Positions 8,731 to 56,850 of a DNA stretch of 64,000 nt are shown piece after piece. Positions within the stretch are counted from its first letter, which is position 1; each line of letters begins with the position of its first letter. Position numbers and translations under genes: made by a program. The DNA is from Sciurus carolinensis (lineage: Eukaryota > Chordata > Mammalia > Rodentia > Sciuridae): NCBI RefSeq assembly GCF_902686445.1, contig NC_062221.1, forward strand, positions 39,820,575 through 39,884,574. Direction: 5' to 3'. The notes beneath the pieces were generated by a model. The model ran no database searches. It worked only from the letters and a program-made list of their open reading frames with translations, and was not told the DNA's origin.

Positions 8731-10463
8731 TATTTTAAGTCTTCATTTGCATAGTATATTGTCCAAATAAATACAATTAATTCATTTAATAGTATCATTC
8801 AAAAAGAAAATTTTGAACAAATATTTATCTAAACTCTACATGAAAGCAATCTGAGAAAGTTAACATTACATGGTAGTAAAACTGGCCTGGGAGACCTGAC
8901 TTTTAATACCAGCAATGCTCTAAATGTTCTTAGCAATCAACATTGCATTTATCTTTCTAAAAAATAATGGAGATTGATGTGATGAACCCTAAGATATCAA
9001 ATATGATTTTATGTACTTCAAAGTAAGACTGACAGTGGGAGTCATATGTAAGAAGGAGGAAAAAAATCTCAATTCTGTTTCATAGAGATGTGTGTACCTA
9101 CCTCCACTACCAGACTCTTAAGTAAAAATATGTCACCCTAAAGTGTGTGTTTCAAAGTGTTCGAAAAAAATCAGTTCCCTGCACAATTTTAATCTTTCTT
9201 TCTGCTTTCCGATTTTGCTCGGTCCTAAACTAGTTGTTTCTAAACTCAAAAGGGTTCTTGCTTTCAACAATAATTGATTAGCATAATCCGTCTTTAGTTT
9301 ATTCAATCATTCAAAACCCATTTTAAACATCTGTTATGAGCTGGGTAATGCAAGACGATGATGGCACAGTGGACTAAGCCCAATGACAGGGATGTGCACA
9401 GGATGCTTGGGAGTGTGCAGGGCTGCATCTGCCCAGAACTGGAAGCGAGGATCAGGGATCATGAAGGATGATCTCTAGAATTGTAGCCAATATCTATGCA
9501 GTTTCAATGATGATTTATGCTTTTGAGAAATACCACAATCCCAATACTCTTGTCCTGTTCTTTTCCCACTTTCTTTTTCTGAAGGATTCAGGAATGAAGA
9601 CTGGAAGAGAATGAATCAGTGTAGGTACTCTCAGTAGACAGGGTGTGTCCACCCAACACAAGTGAAGAAACATGGACTCCAGTGGTAAAAACAGTAGTCA
9701 GACTATCTAAATTCCATATTGGTAACAATGATTCAAAATCTCTTCTTATTTCTCATTTCCTCACTTGGAAATTCAGTGACTGTAATGCCTGCCTGCTCAG
9801 GACAGTTGAAATTCATATGCTGAAGCCAGAGCTCACCAGTATGTCCCCAATTGGTAGCATGTAGCAGGATTTGCAAATTAGTTTTCAAAGTAATGGTATG
9901 TTAATATAACAAATGAATCGTATACATCAAAACTGATTAACATACCCACATGACACTAATTACGTGTGATCAGCTAATTCATTGGTTTTACTTACACATT
10001 TTTGTCCCAAGGCTATTTTTAACAGTAGTTTCATGTGCTTGTCGACCCTAAAAGGGACAGATAATAACATGCCATTAGCTGAGAAAGAAACGTCAGCTGG
10101 AAAACAACCTATTTGCTTTTTGGTCGTTGATTCAATACATGTACTTTTTATATCCTGAAGATATTGAGAATTCCCTAAGTTACCTTAAGGTAAGTGTTTA
10201 ATACTCACAGATGGACTTGTCCTGGTCTTTCTGCATCACTTGGTCAACTTAACATTACTTATAGCTTTATTAGTATTCCAATATGGTATAGATATTTACA
10301 ATGCTAAATAGTTCTCAGACTTTTACTTTTATATGTACAGAGTGTTGATAAATTTCCAATAAAGTTTGTCATCCTCTCAACAGAGAAAGTGTGCCTATTG
10401 TTGACATATATTCAGGTTTCTCTTTTGTTATGTTAATAACCATCTTTTGCTTGTTTTGGAAAG

Positions 10464-10601
10464 GGATTGAATTGGAAATTGTCAATAGCTGTGAAAAGAA
10501 CAATGGTGGTTGTTCCCATCACTGTGAACATGCAGTTGGTGGGCCCCTTTGTTCCTGTAACCATGGACACTAGCTTGATTCGGATGAGAAAACGTGCATA
10601 G
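10464..10601 (+). pseudogene. EGFEM1: Exon: EGF domain with in-frame TAG stop
   Basis: 138 bp, phase 1-1, 46 codons including the stop. Sequence opens R-I-E-L-E-I-V-N-S-C-E and continues NNGGCSHHCEHAVGGPLCSC, matching MEGF6 text of the form NSCE-x-NNGGCSH. After CNHGH the codon is TAG at 10571-10573, then LDSDEKTCI resumes in the same frame. MEGF6 has a polar residue (Glu) here, so the ancestral codon was plausibly CAG or GAG. All six cysteines are present. Acceptor is aaag at 10460-10463 with a poor pyrimidine tract; donor is gtaatg at 10602. Exon skipping would keep frame. Confidence 0.85.
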
Positions 10602-11630
10602 GTAATGTTTGGTAAATGCCATCTTCATTCAAAAGTTGCCCTGTATTCATTTAGTCCTTTCATCTTAATGCTCATTGCTGTAAAGTGAGCCATATCTCTC
10701 AAACTTCAAGGAGAACTGGATTGGACAGTGTCTCTGGCTAGCGGATAAATGTAAAGGAAAGATCACTTGGCAGAAGATATCATTACATTTAGATATTTGC
10801 CCTGAAATTAAGGTGATTTACAGCTTTTAAGGAAATACATGGGCTTAATAGTTTAATTCAGGAAAATATTCCATGGTCTACCTAACTATCTAATGTGATT
10901 CATATTCCAACAACAGTTGCTACCATGTGTCCCACTTCTCCCTGCCTCAAGCAGAAACTAAATCAAATGTACTGGTTTTCAAGTTAGTAAACACTTGGAT
11001 AAATATTCAACTTTAAAATACCAGGTCACTGTATTATGAAAGAAAACTTTGGAAGATAATCATTGTTTGGACATCCCAGTCCAAGCCCATTCCTAATTGC
11101 TAGCTCTCCTGACATACTATTAGAATTAATATCATTTGGGACAATGAGAAGAATAAATTTCACCCTGACCTTCCCTCATAATTAAATGTTTAATCAAGAT
11201 CTTCTGGGGTTAAAAAAAAAAAAAAAGAAAAAGAAAAAGAAAAAGGAATATCTACTGTAAGGATAGAACATCAAACCACATTATTATGAGCTCTGGTTCT
11301 GAGGACACTTTCAAGACTTTAAACAGTGATTTGTCATCATTCAGGAATTATGATACTATATTTGCTTGTCTTCTTTTGTGATGCTGTCTTCAAAATTATA
11401 ATGTAAATGCTAAGAAAAAAAAATTCTTTGGTCCACTCCATGCTCTTCACTATGGTGAGAGACAATCTATAAATACCCAAGTAAAATTAATGGTTTAAGA
11501 ACTGGAGGTGTTTTTGTTTGTTTGTTTGTTTTATTTTTTGATCTTGTCTCTATGATGGGAGAGGATGAATCTCAAGAAATTTTGCAGTATTCTGGTTTCA
11601 TAAATTACTTAAGCAAAAACACTGCCATTG

Positions 11631-14833: not shown

Positions 14834-14956
14834 ACCTTGATGAGTGCGAGAATGGAGAGGCCTGCTGTTCCCAGCTCTGCATCAACTATCTAGGAGGCTA
14901 TGAGTGCAGTTGTCAGGAAGGCTTTCAGATCAGTTCCGATGGTTGTGGATGTGATG
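14834..14956 (+). CDS. EGFEM1: Exon: EGF domain with extra cysteine pair
   Basis: 123 bp, phase 1-1. Split codon plus exon opens D-L-D-E-C, then [24 protein letters not shown] and ends SSDGCGCD. Eight cysteines, with CC and CGC groups, the same unusual pattern recalled for the corresponding MEGF6 module. Acceptor is ccctacag, donor gtaaat at 14957. Intact. Confidence 0.9.
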
Positions 14957-16415: not shown

Positions 16416-16538
16416 ATGTGGATGAGTGTTTGGATGTCAGCACAGTCTGTGACCAGCTCTGTATCAATTCTGTGGGAACCTATGACTGCATCTGTGCAGG
16501 AGGCTACAGAATTGGAAGTGACAGGAGAACTTGCATCT
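16416..16538 (+). CDS. EGFEM1: Exon: calcium-binding EGF domain
   Basis: 123 bp, phase 1-1. Opens D-V-D-E-C and continues VCDQLCINSVGTYDCICAGG, ending RRTCI. Six cysteines in EGF spacing. Donor gtaagt at 16539 is strong. The exon ends with T of a split codon. Confidence 0.9.
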
Positions 16539-17013: not shown

Positions 17014-17259
17014 TGTTTCCTTTTCCAACCAACATGCTGAAACCCAGCATGTCCTCTATGGTCTTAGCTTTAGATGATGATGAACTGGAGGGTGAAGAAG
17101 AGGAATTAGAAGTTGTGAGGTTTCCAGGACTTCTACTCCAGAGCCTGCCTCAGCTGGGTCATTATGTTGCTACCTCCCCGGCTGCTTCTAATGAAGATGA
17201 AGAAGATGAGGGAGAAGAGGAAAAGGATTTCCAGGAAATAACTGCTGTGCACAAAGACG
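17014..17259 (+). CDS. EGFEM1: Exon: acidic linker between the two EGF groups
   Basis: 246 bp if it starts after the AG at 17012-17013; phase 1-1 either way. The AGs before 17068 and 17074 are in the same phase and would give a shorter exon. An upstream AG before 16987 is excluded because it leads to TGA. Encodes a non-EGF segment with two acidic runs (DDDELEGEEEELE and NEDEEDEGEEEKD) flanking a hydrophobic part (RFPGLLLQSLPQLGHYVATS). MEGF6 has a comparable linker with an acidic run and an LPQL-type motif at this place. Donor ggtgagta at 17260 is strong. No cysteine. Likely an extended, charged spacer. The start is the least certain exon border in the gene. Confidence 0.75.
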
Positions 17260-19050: not shown

Positions 19051-20134
19051 GCATATGTATTAATTTTTGTTAAAAAAATTATTTGTAAAAGAAAACCATG
19101 CACATAAAACCTGGAAAGAAAACCACTAAACTACCTGGGATATTTGTTATTAGTGTGTTCTGGAATTAAGAGTGAATTCTTTTTTATTTTTTCTTAAGAC
19201 TCTGGATATTCTCTAGGGAACATATTCTAATATAATTGGGAAAAAATAAAGTGAGCTCTATTTTAAAGGTATCTCTTTGTTGTGGTCTCTCTGGAACTCT
19301 CTAGGATATATGCTTTCAAGAATCCTGGTTTTCTTTGGGCAATAAAGGATTTCCTTTCCATTTTCTGATATGTAGACAGTTAGGAACTGACTAAGACAGC
19401 ATCACGTTGCAGTTATTTAGGTCACACTTTGGGACAACCTTGCAGCCGGAGCCATGAGGACAGCATCAACAGAGACAAATGCCTGAGGGAAAGACCCAGT
19501 GCTCCTGCCCTTCTTTGCAATGAAATTAAGTGATGGCCTGAGAAATGGTACAGGTCACCAAGCTACTGGGGACAAGTTCTCTTTAAGTCGTGCTCCCTAA
19601 AATGTCGAAAGAAGATAAAGAATTGATGTGGGTGAGAAACCAAGTCATTTACTGTGCATAAAGAATCCCTGTGAATGCTGAGGTTAAACTGAACTTGGAG
19701 CACAGAGGAGACTTTGTGTTCCCTGGGAAACCCGTGCTCTGTCTCTTGTTTCTCCACAAAATGTAAAAGTTAATAAAGGATCTTAATATTTTAGGCTTCT
19801 AAAACTCCCTCCATTTAAATAAGTCATCAGACCCTGGCAAACTATTCCCAGTGAAGGAATAAAAAAAAAGGAAAGGAAAGAATTTCTGGTACAAAGTGCA
19901 ACTAAATGAAATTGCTTGACTTATTCCTGCCCATTTTTCATTTTTGTGAGATATTTTTCTTTTCTTTTTCTCTTTTTTGATATATGCTAACAGAGTCATT
20001 TACATAGGTTTAATTTTTTATATGTCTCTTCTGAGAAAATAACAAAGATTTAGGCATGGTATCACCCGAAAATCTTTTTCTTCATATTTTAAATGAAGAT
20101 ATGTTTTCTGGAGTTACAACTGATCCTACAATAT

Positions 20135-23046: not shown

Positions 23047-23175
23047 CTTGTGCCCCAGAGATGGATGGGAAAGAATGTGACAGCATCTGCAAGTGTCAGA
23101 ATGGAGGCACCTGTGACCTTCTGACTGGACAGTGCCGGTGCCCACCTGGGGTTCATGGGAAGATTTGCGAAGATG
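23047..23175 (+). CDS. EGFEM1: Exon: laminin-type EGF domain 1
   Basis: 129 bp, phase 1-1. Split codon G|CT gives Ala, then [35 protein letters not shown] and ICED. Eight cysteines and the [16 protein letters not shown] motif place it in the MEGF/laminin-type EGF class. Acceptor ttcttcacag and donor gtagga at 23176. Intact. Confidence 0.9.
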
Positions 23176-24711: not shown

Positions 24712-24840
24712 GATGCCCAAAAGGGTTCTTTGGTAAAAACTGCAAGAGGAAATGTAACTGTGCCAACAATGGACATTGCCACAGGATGTATGGTGCCTGT
24801 ATGTGTGAACCAGGGCGCTATGGGAGATTCTGTCATCTGA
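24712..24840 (+). CDS. EGFEM1: Exon: laminin-type EGF domain 2
   Basis: 129 bp, phase 1-1. Opens G-C-P-K-G-F-F-G-K-N-C, then CNCANNGHCHRMYGACMC, GRYGRFCHL. This module is nearly the same as the recalled MEGF6 module (GCPKGYYGKHC, CNCANRGRCHRLYGAC), the strongest single homology in the window. Acceptor ccaccctccag and donor gtaagt at 24841 are both strong. Intact. Confidence 0.93.
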   Translation, partial: DAQKGSLVKTARGNVTVPTMDIATGCMVPVCVNQGAMGDSVI

Positions 24841-28532: not shown

Positions 28533-28667
28533 ACTGTCCCAAGGGGGCCTTTGGAGCTGGCTGCTCTCTGGAATGTCAGTGTGTGGAGGAGAACACCCTG
28601 GAATGCAGTGCCAAAAATGGTACTTGCACCTGCAAATCTGGTTACCAAGGCAACAGATGCCAGAAAG
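28533..28667 (+). CDS. EGFEM1: Exon: laminin-type EGF domain 3
   Basis: 135 bp, phase 1-1. Opens N-C-P-K-G-A-F-G-A-G-C-S, then LECQCVEENTLECSAKNGTC, TCKSGYQGNRCQK. Eight cysteines. Corresponds to the recalled MEGF6 module with AFGPGCSEECQCV. Acceptor ctgcttgcag, donor gtacaa at 28668. Intact. Contains N-x-T sites (ENT, KNGT), the second being a possible N-glycosylation site. Confidence 0.9.
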
Positions 28668-29179: not shown

Positions 29180-31244
29180 ACATACATAATTTCAATGTTA
29201 AGTAATATATTCATATATATGTGTGTCTGTGTGTATGTGCATGTGTGTGTGTGTGTTTGCATATAAAATTTGGAAGAAAGTGTCCCAAGATGTCAGCTAT
29301 TCTGTTTCTGACTTGTGGACTCATGGAATGCTCCTCCTCAGTTTTTTACAGGGGCTTTTTTGTGTTTTTAAAAATCTCACATCACCTTTGCACTGAATTT
29401 TATCAGTCCTGTGCTAGCTAACTTTGCAACTTGCAAGTTTCCCTGAACTTTTTTCTTTCTCTGTCGTGTTTATCATATTCTAACAGACCACATATTCTAA
29501 TTATTGTCTAATATATATATTGCCTCTCCTTCTCTGCTAAAATCTGAACCTCACATGGGAGAGTATCTGCAATTTTATTCTGATATCCCTAATCCTCCTA
29601 GAACAGTCCTGACAAAGATATTTCTCAGTAAATGATTTCTTAAATTAATACATAAGTTTGCAGTTAATTTTTATCATTTATTTATTTTCTCATAGTGTGG
29701 ATAAGGCACTAGTTACTATTGAATTCAGAGGAAATTATCACAGCATTTTTTCTCTTTAATATAAAATAGTGAGCATACAACAAATACAATGATCATAACT
29801 AATGATAAGTTCTACTTTTTGCCCTTGCAGTGATCAAAAGGGCAATGTTGCTTAAAATCGGGAGAAGATAAGGGGTTTGAAAGGAAGTCATCATCACTGA
29901 GTTCACTTACAGAGGGAAGCCCTGAGATGGACAGTTGTCCTTAAACCTCTTGTTTCCTCATCTGCTCATTGCACTGCAGTCTACAGAGTCTAAAAGGCTT
30001 TTCTGGAGCTGAATGAGAAAGAGAGTGACTGTTCTGGGTTATATTCTGTGCCTGTGGAACTGAAGCAATTGAACAGTAATGTCCATCTGGATTTCGTGGA
30101 GAGTGGGTTCTTTAGATAGCTGAATTGTGATGGTAATGGGGAAAAGAACCTGGGGGAATAGAAGCCTGGTATCACATGACTGTGTTTTAAATGGTATAAG
30201 TGGGTCTCATGTCACTTTCTAAATCTCCTGCCTCAACGGATTTTTAAACCTAGAGCTGGCCCCTTCTTCCTTTCCCTACTGGAGAAGTCATGCCCTGGAA
30301 GCCAATGCACAAGGAGATAATACCATATCCACACACCTGGGTAAATTTAATTTATTCTGATAACATTTTCTTAAAGCAACTGCTGAATATACTTTATTGG
30401 AAAATGCTTCTGAGATTCCTACTGTGAAAGAAAATGAGTTGAAAGTATATGTAAATCAGCAAAATAGAGAGGTCACCATAATCTCTGGAAAACATATTAT
30501 TTTTCAATCAGATAACTTTGTCCAATTCTGATATTTTTGTCTAACCACAAAATGAAATTATGAATCAGACTGGAGTGGGTGAATGGGCTTGCCATGATTG
30601 GCAGCTGAAATCAAGGCAAAAAGAGCTCTTTAAGAGTTGTGCATGATGAAAATCAGAACTGTTGTTTTTCTTTTTCCTTTTAAAAAAAGTGAAGTAGCCC
30701 AAGTGCTCCTAGAGCCAGACAGATCCTTAAAAATCTTAACTCCAGACCTGTGTCTAGATTGCAGATGAATAGTTAATTAAAGACTTCAAATTGTTTCAAT
30801 GGCACTAATGAACAGTATTCCTCCACAATCAGCACCGGTCCTTATTTAGCTTATCAGCGCTGACTTCTAAGAACAGAGGAGCTGGTTTCTTCAACTAACC
30901 TGTGAAATAGCAAAAAAAAAAAAAAAAAAAAAAGAAGAAGAAGAAGAAGAAAGAAAAAAAGATTCTTTTTTAAAAGCAGCCAATGTCTTTGGCTTCTATT
31001 TATGTTGATTAGTTTATAGCCTGGGGTATTTTGGAGCTCATCTACCTGTAGAGGACCCTGTGGTCCAGCAATTCCCTTAAGTTCATTTAAGGAGGTCCAT
31101 AACAACCCTCATGTCATAATAATAAAGACAGGTTATTGTTAAACTAATTTTACATTAGATGAACTTTGAATTTTGAACTCTCATGGGTCTCTAAGGGCAA
31201 GTTAATTGACTCTGAAGGTACTGAGTACATAGGCCAGCAAGGAA

Positions 31245-32251: not shown

Positions 32252-32383
32252 ACTGCCCCGATGGCCTCTGGGGAACAGAATGCAGGTTCTCCTGTGGACC
32301 CTGTGAGAATGGAGGTCAGTGCGACAAAGAAACTGGAAACTGTGCCTGTGCTCCTGGTTACACGGGAAAATCCTGCGCAATGC
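32252..32383 (+). CDS. EGFEM1: Exon: laminin-type EGF domain 4
   Basis: 132 bp, phase 1-1. Opens [11 protein letters not shown], then [33 protein letters not shown]. Eight cysteines. Acceptor tctgtattttacaag and donor gtaagt at 32384. Intact. This is the last EGF module of the gene. Confidence 0.9.
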
Positions 32384-36739: not shown

Positions 36740-37150
36740 AATTAAAAGTCCTCAGTATCTCCAAAAACAAAGAAGTGAGATGCAACAAAAAGCTTCTCTC
36801 TCGCTGAAGCAATTGCAAATCTGATTTTTAAAGTTGCTGTAAAATAAATTGTATTTAAATAATACATCGCCCATCCTTTCCCGCAGTGAGATGCATTTCC
36901 CTTACCAATCTGGTTCTCAGCAGGCGGGCCAGCCTGATGAAGTATCAGCAAAATGTCAGCTCCCACAGAGAAGTGCGACAGAGGCGACACTGAAGCAGTG
37001 ACAGGCCTTTCAAGAAGCTATTGTGCAAATTCGGTTTTGAAATAGGGATGTGGTTGAGGACGGATGGATATGTCATTACCAAGGCGTTCATCTCCCCATC
37101 GTCAGGAGGCAGGGAAGGGAAGCCTGGAGCAGCTGATGTACAGACATTAA
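36740..37150. other. Candidate conserved noncoding element
   Basis: No repeat recognised. Balanced composition, with CpGs kept in an AT-rich setting (ctctcgctgaag, acatcgcccatc, tcccgcagtg, caggcgggcc, gtgcgacagaggcgacac, attcggttttg, gaggacggatgg, aaggcgttcat, catcgtcagg). Contains AT-rich homeodomain-like words (aaattgtatttaaataatac). Inferred regulatory element; conservation cannot be seen from one sequence. Confidence 0.4.
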
Positions 37151-54050: not shown

Positions 54051-56850
54051 TGTCCTTTCTTAAAAATTAGCATTCTCTTAATCATTTGGGGAATTGTAGT
54101 TTTATTCGTTCATTTGTTTTCTTTTGCTATCTAGAAATACAACTTAAAGCACATCTGGTTTCAGCAGTTTTCTGTAATGTAAGGCTTTGGACACTATTGT
54201 CTTTTTCCTTTTATTGCATGGCCATTGTTCTTTCCATGCTTTAAAGATTCTATTTTATGGGTCTCTCCTTCTTGTATAAATTATTTTCATCCTTTTTTTG
54301 AAATAGAACTAAATAATGAATAAATCAATCAATGAGGCAAGTTAAAATTCTCTTGAATTTTGAAGCCTGATTGAATTGTCAAAAAGAATTATAGTTCATA
54401 TAGTAATCCTAGTAATTATGCTTTGATAAAATTATAAATGTCCAACATCATATTGCTAATACATATTATGCATATAAATATTACATGGAATATTCTTTAA
54501 ATGTTAACATATGCATCTATAAATAAGTAGCATTTACATAGAGAAAGAACCAACTTTTTATAAACTGCATGTAATATATATTTGGATTAAAGAAAAGATA
54601 GCTTGTTCCTTTTTAGGAAACATTGTCTGAATGTGAAAATATCTTTCTCCTATGGAAGGACTATGTAGAAGGGAAGGAATAATCATCTCAAAGGTGGGGA
54701 GTGTAATGAGAGCAGTTTTTAATGCTGTTAGTAACTAAGAACACAGGCTTTCTAGTTATTAGACCTACCTGCATAGGAATACCAGTTCTGCTACTGTGTG
54801 ATCTTCTTATGACTCAGTTGCTTTCTATCTGAAATGGGGATAATAATACCTATCTCATATAGGCTTGATGCTATATAAATAGCTGAATGTATACATGAGA
54901 CAGACATTTTTGCAGAATGTAATTTAAAAAACTTTAATACCCATCCTTTAAAGGCTTGATTTTAAGTTTTGGAAGGAAGTAAAATTGGATACCTCTATGC
55001 AATAAGCAGACTGAATATGTAATAGCTCAACCAGGAGGACAGGTGACAAACCTAGATGATATGGGGTAAATAAGAAATTCTGAGTACTGTGTGCAGCCCA
55101 TCAATTGCAATGAGGACCTGGGGAGTTGTAACCTCTGTGACTGTAGCCCAGGCTGCTGTACTGTGGAGCACCACAGTGCACACGGGCTCTCTGAGCGCCC
55201 ATTCCACCTAACTCACGTGGCAGTAAAGTACAGCGCATAGTATCCACGCCAGAGCAATAGCCACATCCTCAAAATAACAGTGTAATGATGTCTCTAATCT
55301 ACATCAGAGGTGATGATTTCAGACCTCAAGTTTTCTCTTTTTCTAGGTTAATACACTTGCACCCTCAGATCTCTGCATTTGGAGAAATATGTCACCATGT
55401 ATTCCCAGAGTACTTTGTCTGATTCAGAATGCCCAGAGGGAACCTTGATGCTGTAAGTTCAGCATCAAGAACCAGAATTCATGTCAGTGGTGATGTGAGA
55501 AGTCTGCACATGTTCAGGAGGATGGGGAGGGACACTCTTACGTCCCTCTTTTTTCCTTTTTCCTTTTTTTAATTTCTTAAAGACTGTTTGTTTGCTGTTA
55601 ACCTGGGTGCTGGTGTTTCTACGTCCTCTTGTCTTTGGCAAAGGTAGATTTTGAATTCCAGATTGTAAGGCAAATTTCTAAGTTCATTGTTCTCTTCTAT
55701 CGACATGCAAATCTGTTGGCACTTGCAGTAGTATTATTTGTTTTTTTCTGTTGCTTGGGTGACCAGAAGCACTATATCAAGATACAAATATTGGGGAGGT
55801 GACATTTTAAGCCAGCCCACCAACTCAGAAAACTACCATTTTTGGTAATAGTACTGAATATTCTGTTGTAGGACAGGGATTGGAATTACTAAATATATTC
55901 TTCATTTCGACAGTACCCTGATCTAAGAATTCCGTGATTATCTTATAGTTACATGGAATAGAGTGTCTACCTTAATAGCCATTCAGTAAATCAGAATACC
56001 CTAAAGACTCAATGCCATCTTAAAATCTCACTTATAGATAGGAAGGACCCAAGCATGAAATTTAGTAAAAAAATCAAAAGCTTAATTTTACTTGGTTGCA
56101 AGAAACACAGAGGCATGTAAATATCTAAAATTAAAAATGCTAGAGAAAAAAATTCACTTTTCAAAAATGATTTAAGTGTAGAAGTGAATTTGCTATCACA
56201 CAGTAATCTGCTAAACTGAAGCAGGAGTTATTTTGGATTTCTAGCTCATGCAAGAAATGATCTGTTGCTTGCTCTTGTGAAGTTGTTTTCACACTATGAA
56301 ACGGCAGAGGAGAAGAATGCATTCTGTCTGAGGCATTGTAAAAATATTGAAAGCTCTGACTGAAGTTTTTGTAAAGGTATCTGACTACAACTTGTCATTT
56401 ATACTTTACGGGCCAATAATTGTTACGCCAAAATAGCAGATGCTTAGCTTTCAGAATTATCTCTTAATTTAAAATGGGTTCAGAGACCCAATTCTGACAT
56501 CCCGAGATTGCCACTCATGTGATCACACTGCCACCGTGTGGTTTTAAAGATCCTTTTCAATGAAAAGAAAATCAGAAATGATCTCACAAAAAAGAAAGTA
56601 ATAATCCAAATATTTTAGCTATTTTTGTTGTTTATCCTGTGCTACAATGGCACATATAGTGTATGGATTATTTCAGGTGATAGGACAGAGGACGCCATTA
56701 AAGAGGTGGAAATATAGGCTTCATGGATTCAGTTTCTGCCCAGTGAAGGCTATCAGGACCTTTGCTAAAAGACACTGCCTTTTCTGTATAAATGTAGCAT
56801 TTCCAGCATCCAGAAAAATCTGAAAAATACTTTACAGGTATTATTAGGCA
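54051..56850. other. Noncoding stretch with a MIR
   Basis: Apart from the MIR at 54735-54895, no element is firmly recognised. A cysteine-rich chance frame at about 55.08-55.25 kb is discussed under rejected items. Confidence 0.4.
54735..54895 (+). repeat. MIR SINE
   Basis: Reads aagaacacaggctttctagt, ctgctactgtgtgatcttct, ctatctgaaatggggataat, aatacctatctcatataggc. Good MIR match through the core. Confidence 0.8.

Follow-up and report, generated by a model that had tools for sequence, protein, structure and literature searches.

The EGFEM1 gene of Sciurus carolinensis carries an in-frame TAG in an EGF exon at positions 10571 to 10573 of the window, i.e., the whole stretch of 64,000 nucleotides that was analyzed. 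The TAG is real in the given sequence. The case is most likely one of a known kind, recent unitary gene loss, and a recent, perhaps still polymorphic, unitary pseudogenization of EGFEM1 in this lineage is regarded as the probable explanation, though with clear reservations. A second EGF module, at 19.4 kb, proved to be a fossil.

Judged by protein comparison, the + strand of the window is part of EGFEM1, an EMI/EGF-repeat gene. The best protein matches were EGFEM1, exon by exon and in collinear order, which bears out the gene assignment of the sequence-only reading. The top-ranked named matches, among those listed, were mostly EGFEM1, including the proteins of sperm whale, Apodemus and mouse. 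Like EGFEM1, MEGF6 and related EGF-repeat genes combine EMI with EGF arrays, but models named MEGF6, e.g., P0027 (Condylura), reached about 43–45% identity, whereas EGFEM1 models reached up to 79–84% over part of the query. Source names were not always reliable, and some EGFEM1 orthologues stood under other names: the Myotis model P0131, labeled MEGF6, was 73% identical. A search of solved structures returned general EGF proteins, e.g., LRP2 and the LDL receptor. Scanning all six frames for patterns and searching with a custom HMM revealed eight EGF exons; the acidic linker and the terminal coding exon were added by translated searches with fetched proteins. Introns are present between the exons, and the features were as follows.

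1147 to 1269, + strand: exon A, calcium-binding type EGF, phase 1-1
10464 to 10601, + strand: exon B, EGF module interrupted by the in-frame TAG, 138 nt, phase 1-1
10571 to 10573, + strand: TAG stop codon in exon B; all 20 mammalian models with the exon have Gln or Arg
14834 to 14956, + strand: exon C, EGF module, phase 1-1
16416 to 16538, + strand: exon D, EGF module, phase 1-1; present in 7 of 21 chosen taxa, missing from many models
17068 to 17259, + strand: exon E, acidic linker, phase 1-1
23047 to 23175, + strand: exon F, laminin-type EGF, phase 1-1
24712 to 24840, + strand: exon G, laminin-type EGF, phase 1-1
28533 to 28667, + strand: exon H, laminin-type EGF, phase 1-1; identified by orthologues, no Pfam match at 0.001
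32252 to 32383, + strand: exon I, laminin-type EGF, phase 1-1
36887 to 36993, + strand: coding part of the terminal exon, up to and including the TGA; the end follows a single orthologue model, P0028

An AG acceptor precedes each of the ten exons and a GT donor follows nine of them (the terminal one needs none); all these junctions are in phase 1. The TAG was the only in-frame stop across these ten recognizable exons. The earlier statement that the other nine exons show no stop or frameshift thus held, as they were open with AG acceptors and GT donors kept; since that reading gave no list of its ten exons, they were taken to be exons A to I and the terminal exon. An upstream EGF exon query against positions 1 to 1144 scored 27 at best, a value obtained without shuffles. 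No gene adjoining EGFEM1 was recognized in the window. Dual coding of the 32.3-kb exon, whose second frame is open, was considered and dropped because a second open frame occurs in other EGF exons as well.

Exon B is bounded by the acceptor ttttggaaag/GG and the donor CATAG/gtaatg, and its 138 nt are entered and left in phase 1. Its translation, IELEIVNSCEKNNGGCSHHCEHAVGGPLCSCNHGH*LDSDEKTCI, contains six cysteines. With X put for the stop, it matched the Pfam family FXa_inhibition (EGF type) with 41.9 bits against a cut-off of 33.4. In 22 of 23 chosen mammals (those with a match there), the exon was 70–96% identical, with similarity on both flanks of the TAG; this homology to orthologues on both sides of the stop excludes chance. 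The 23 taxa were chosen out of 210 database proteins (P0002–P0211); in the same identity table, paralogous matches of about 56% identity entered exon D, and some exon I matches went unchecked. Around exon B, at 10200 to 10900, no repeats of at least 12 bases were found. Pfam and orthologue matches thus agreed with the initial description of a TAG inside an otherwise intact EGF exon with six cysteines and a workable splice frame.

The residue at the TAG codon was compared among orthologues. Of 21 taxa chosen, 20 mammalian models covered the position, with Gln in 11, Arg in nine and a stop in none; these are protein models, in which stops rarely appear, so that the TAG could also occur in other lineages. 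Gln was found in the rodents Mus, Rattus, Phodopus, Nannospalax, Heterocephalus, Fukomys and Castor and Arg in Microtus, while Leu or His also occur in more distant vertebrates. Since the orthologue models carry Gln or Arg, a change from CAG to TAG fits, and this single transition, proposed from the outset, would be the simplest origin, with the ancestral codon deduced from proteins. Human EGFEM1P, which has been called a pseudogene (PMC10097643), is the same gene as EGFEM1 of the window. That a squirrel loss would be independent of the human one is argued from the Gln of seven further rodents and the Arg of Microtus, again in protein models that would rarely show a stop. The mouse orthologue Egfem1 (EGFEM_MOUSE, P0006, 590 aa) has a like module order around the position of the stop; unlike the window, it has Gln at the TAG codon and, in this model, lacks counterparts of exons D, F and I and of the terminal tail.

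Exon B appears to be constitutive as far as gene models show. Both flanking exons were recognized in 22 models, two of them from one vole species; 21 of these include exon B, the only exception being the fish model P0157, with unrelated sequence in its place. The TAG is thus a disabling lesion in a coding exon present in 21 of 22 models. Gene models are no proof of splicing either way, because the model of Ovis (sheep), P0132, takes only part of exon B. The main biological rival to gene loss is that exon B is skipped and the gene still yields a shortened but useful protein, minus one EGF module. With 138 nt and phase 1-1, the exon could be left out in frame, and a neighboring module died earlier while the other exons stayed constrained (see below). 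Its inclusion in nearly all models with both flanks speaks against this, and so does the undecayed state of exon B apart from the TAG, by which skipping would have to be recent; on balance, skipping is considered distinctly unlikely.

The TAG may also be peculiar to the sequenced animal or an artifact of assembly, the gene of the species being intact save for the fossil exon. The ten exons otherwise look constrained and only one base is involved, both as this explanation would have it. No named sciurid EGFEM1 protein was present among the matches listed (120 of 193, 9 of 9 and 120 of 525), which counts weakly against it, as the protein rows are clusters at 90% identity and many are unnamed. 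A private variant or error is seen as rather unlikely.

The sequence-only reading had supposed that the gene was caught with a single lesion. This did not hold: the gene has more than one lesion because the EGF exon at 19.4 kb is a fossil. In orthologues, the linker and the 23.0-kb exon are separated by an EGF module, VVCLDxTFGHDCSLSCEDCMNGG...LLCNE, the remains of which were placed in the window as follows.

About 19413 to 19525, + strand: fossil of the EGF exon VVCLDxTFGHDC...LLCNE; alignment 19417 to 19514, outer limits putative

At the settings of the first translated searches, no match to the module was obtained in this interval of 5.8 kb; a sensitive search there recovered 19417 to 19524 with an E-value of 6e-6. 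Frameshift-aware alignment scored 89 with the Myotis, 83 with the naked mole-rat and 73 with the mouse exon. The maxima of 60 shuffles each were 43 (Myotis) and 39 (naked mole-rat), the mouse score standing without shuffles. The alignment contained one frameshift, and His and Ser replaced two cysteines. By eye, one base appears to be lacking between the probable acceptor and the codon at which the alignment starts, bases seem to be missing before TGCAATGAA, and the putative donor reads TTAAGT, with no GT, where GTAAGT would be expected. Pfam assigned no family to the fossil exon; the intact Myotis exon likewise remained below every cut-off shown. In the mouse, the module that is fossil in the window is intact. 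The alignments thus indicate that the gene had at least one further exon in the window, now a fossil. They also suggest that this module died long before the TAG arose and that the ten other exons were constrained until recently. Loss of the module would not have broken the frame because the flanking exons are both in phase 1.

The age of the TAG was assessed from the remaining exons. The tree was a protein supermatrix of eight exons on a constraint tree, with 18 taxa (leaving out Microtus ochrogaster, Apodemus, Lontra, Oryx and Camelus) and uneven exon coverage of 126 to 360 residues; distances were summed by hand from printed trees. For the tree and the residue table, matches covering 75% of an exon or less were dropped and an identity floor of 55% was applied (linker 40%, exon D 65%, exon I 70%). 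From the ancestor of Mus and the window, the distance in replacements per site was 0.099 for the window, 0.159 for Castor and 0.211–0.294 for five muroids. To the rodent root it was 0.115 for the window, 0.128 for naked mole-rat, 0.176 for Castor and 0.203 for Fukomys. Of nine rodent tips, that of the window was the shortest, and the order stayed the same when exon B was removed and when the linker was removed; such a short protein branch is expected under a very young loss and equally under no loss. In the window, private residues occupied 18 of 358 columns (5.0% with the stop counted), as against 1.7–14.6% in the 21 other taxa, where taxa without a close relative in the set, the window included, show more of them. 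In otherwise invariant columns, the window had five private changes (1.4%, ninth highest of 22; elsewhere 0–4.0%), two of them adjacent in exon D. These five changes count against the reading of a recent loss. Nothing in the ten exons pointed to a long period of relaxed constraint.

Lesion counts were modeled for 1,323 coding nucleotides and 38 splice bases, with assumed weights of 4:1 for transitions, 8-fold for CpG, and indels at 10% of substitutions, 75% of them disabling; the estimate omits the fossil exon and the 5' half of the gene, which lies outside the window. Under these weights, the nonsense share of substitutions was 3.6%, and the probability of at most one lesion fell to 0.05 at a neutral divergence of 0.0257. 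At a divergence of 0.05, about nine lesions would be expected in the ten exons, with a probability of 0.001 for at most one; one was seen. The mammalian neutral rate is 2–3 per site per billion years. On this general rate and the assumed weights, the TAG would be at most roughly 9–13 million years old. The loss had been proposed to be very recent, and the lesion does look young: the protein branch is short, there is one lesion in ten exons, and the rest of exon B and the nine other exons resemble a constrained gene. The same figures bear on the alternative that the gene died long ago and the window holds a pseudogene preserved by chance. The fossil exon at 19.4 kb and the absence of a sciurid EGFEM1 among the matches listed above would suit an old death; the short branch and the one lesion in place of about nine do not, making it very improbable.

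In the proposed history, which rests on recent unitary pseudogenization, the neighboring EGF module (about 19413 to 19525) would have been lost much earlier, and a C-to-T transition would then have turned a Gln codon of exon B into the TAG. The stop is predicted to cut the protein inside the EGF array, before eight further recognizable exons. A stop with splice junctions downstream triggers nonsense-mediated decay as an established rule, and since eight splice junctions follow the TAG, the EGFEM1 message is expected to become a target of this decay. Loss of EGFEM1 function would follow. Alternatively, ribosomes might read through the TAG and make the full protein, in keeping with the coding-like sequence 3' of it. 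That conservation is explained by a young lesion, and TAG with CTT after it is not known to promote strong readthrough in mammals; readthrough is scarcely credible here.

The 3' end of the gene was placed with the help of orthologue models. The TGA at 36991 to 36993 is probably the normal end, because the Fukomys model P0028 ends in ...HREVRQRRH there; the Lutra model P0117 (labeled low quality) has Gly at the TGA, and P0067 diverges before it. The terminal exon, over 36887 to 37080, was strongly conserved in the models of Lutra, Diceros and Fukomys. In its place, long vole and bat models have further EGF modules, an apparent alternative 3' end. Four downstream EGF queries against 32.4–64 kb scored 41, 49, 47 and 49, with maxima of 42, 39, 38 and 42 in only six shuffles per query, which three of the four exceeded; exon I, as positive control, scored 212. 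At 55088 to 55735, three weak cysteine-rich similarities in one frame, each slightly above six shuffles, lay amid many stops, and no EGF module was recognized by eye near 55.1–55.7 kb. Between exons H and I, the stretch 30373 to 30447 contained a conserved KATAEYTLLENASEIPTVKENELK, which the otter, rhinoceros and two bat models match at 84–92% identity. Used as an exon, it would have phase 1 at its start and phase 0 at its end, the next exon then standing in another frame in several models; it may be either a cassette exon or a conserved non-coding element.

Six SINE-like copies, at 1463, 3660, 18887, 23987, 38152 and 40570, start with a GGGGCTGGGG-type sequence, for which 100 shuffles gave none. 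The sole Rfam match at the gathering threshold was tRNA-like, at 1469 to 1541, where the copy at 1463 starts. By this match, the copies appear to be tRNA-derived, and we take them to be of the tRNA-derived family typical of, or common in, squirrels.

Damage to EGFEM1 may not be confined to the window. Among the matches listed, the models of Neophocaena, Kogia, Lutra and Trichechus were labeled low quality. By eye, those of Physeter, Equus, Aotus, Plecturocebus and Castor lack cysteines or contain segments that seem shifted, and two exon B copies without a name, P0129 and P0130, end in what looks to be a wrong frame. These protein models suggest that damage or loss of EGFEM1 is likely recurrent across several mammals. 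As described for primate unitary pseudogenes (PMC2864566), the proposed loss here would concern a gene at its own locus and is dated from neutral change; the names EGFEM1 and C3orf50 are absent from the main text of that paper. The literature searched on EGFEM1 with squirrel contained no report of its loss in squirrels, EGFEM1 together with gene loss occurred in an ovarian cancer context only, and none of the gene-loss papers among the matches listed concerned EGFEM1.

A further possibility is that EGFEM1 shrinks module by module: phase 1-1 EGF exons would die singly, in-frame skipping keeping the rest under selection, the 19.4-kb exon having been lost long ago and the 10.46-kb exon being lost now. 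This is thought improbable, and the exon phases offer a clear test of gradual module loss versus outright death of the gene. If recent pseudogenization is true, the window would be a snapshot of a gene whose models appear damaged in several mammals: one module would have died long ago, constraint on the others would have lasted until recently, and one nonsense codon would be fresh. A comparison of related species that have the TAG with others that lack it could then help in asking about the role of EGFEM1.
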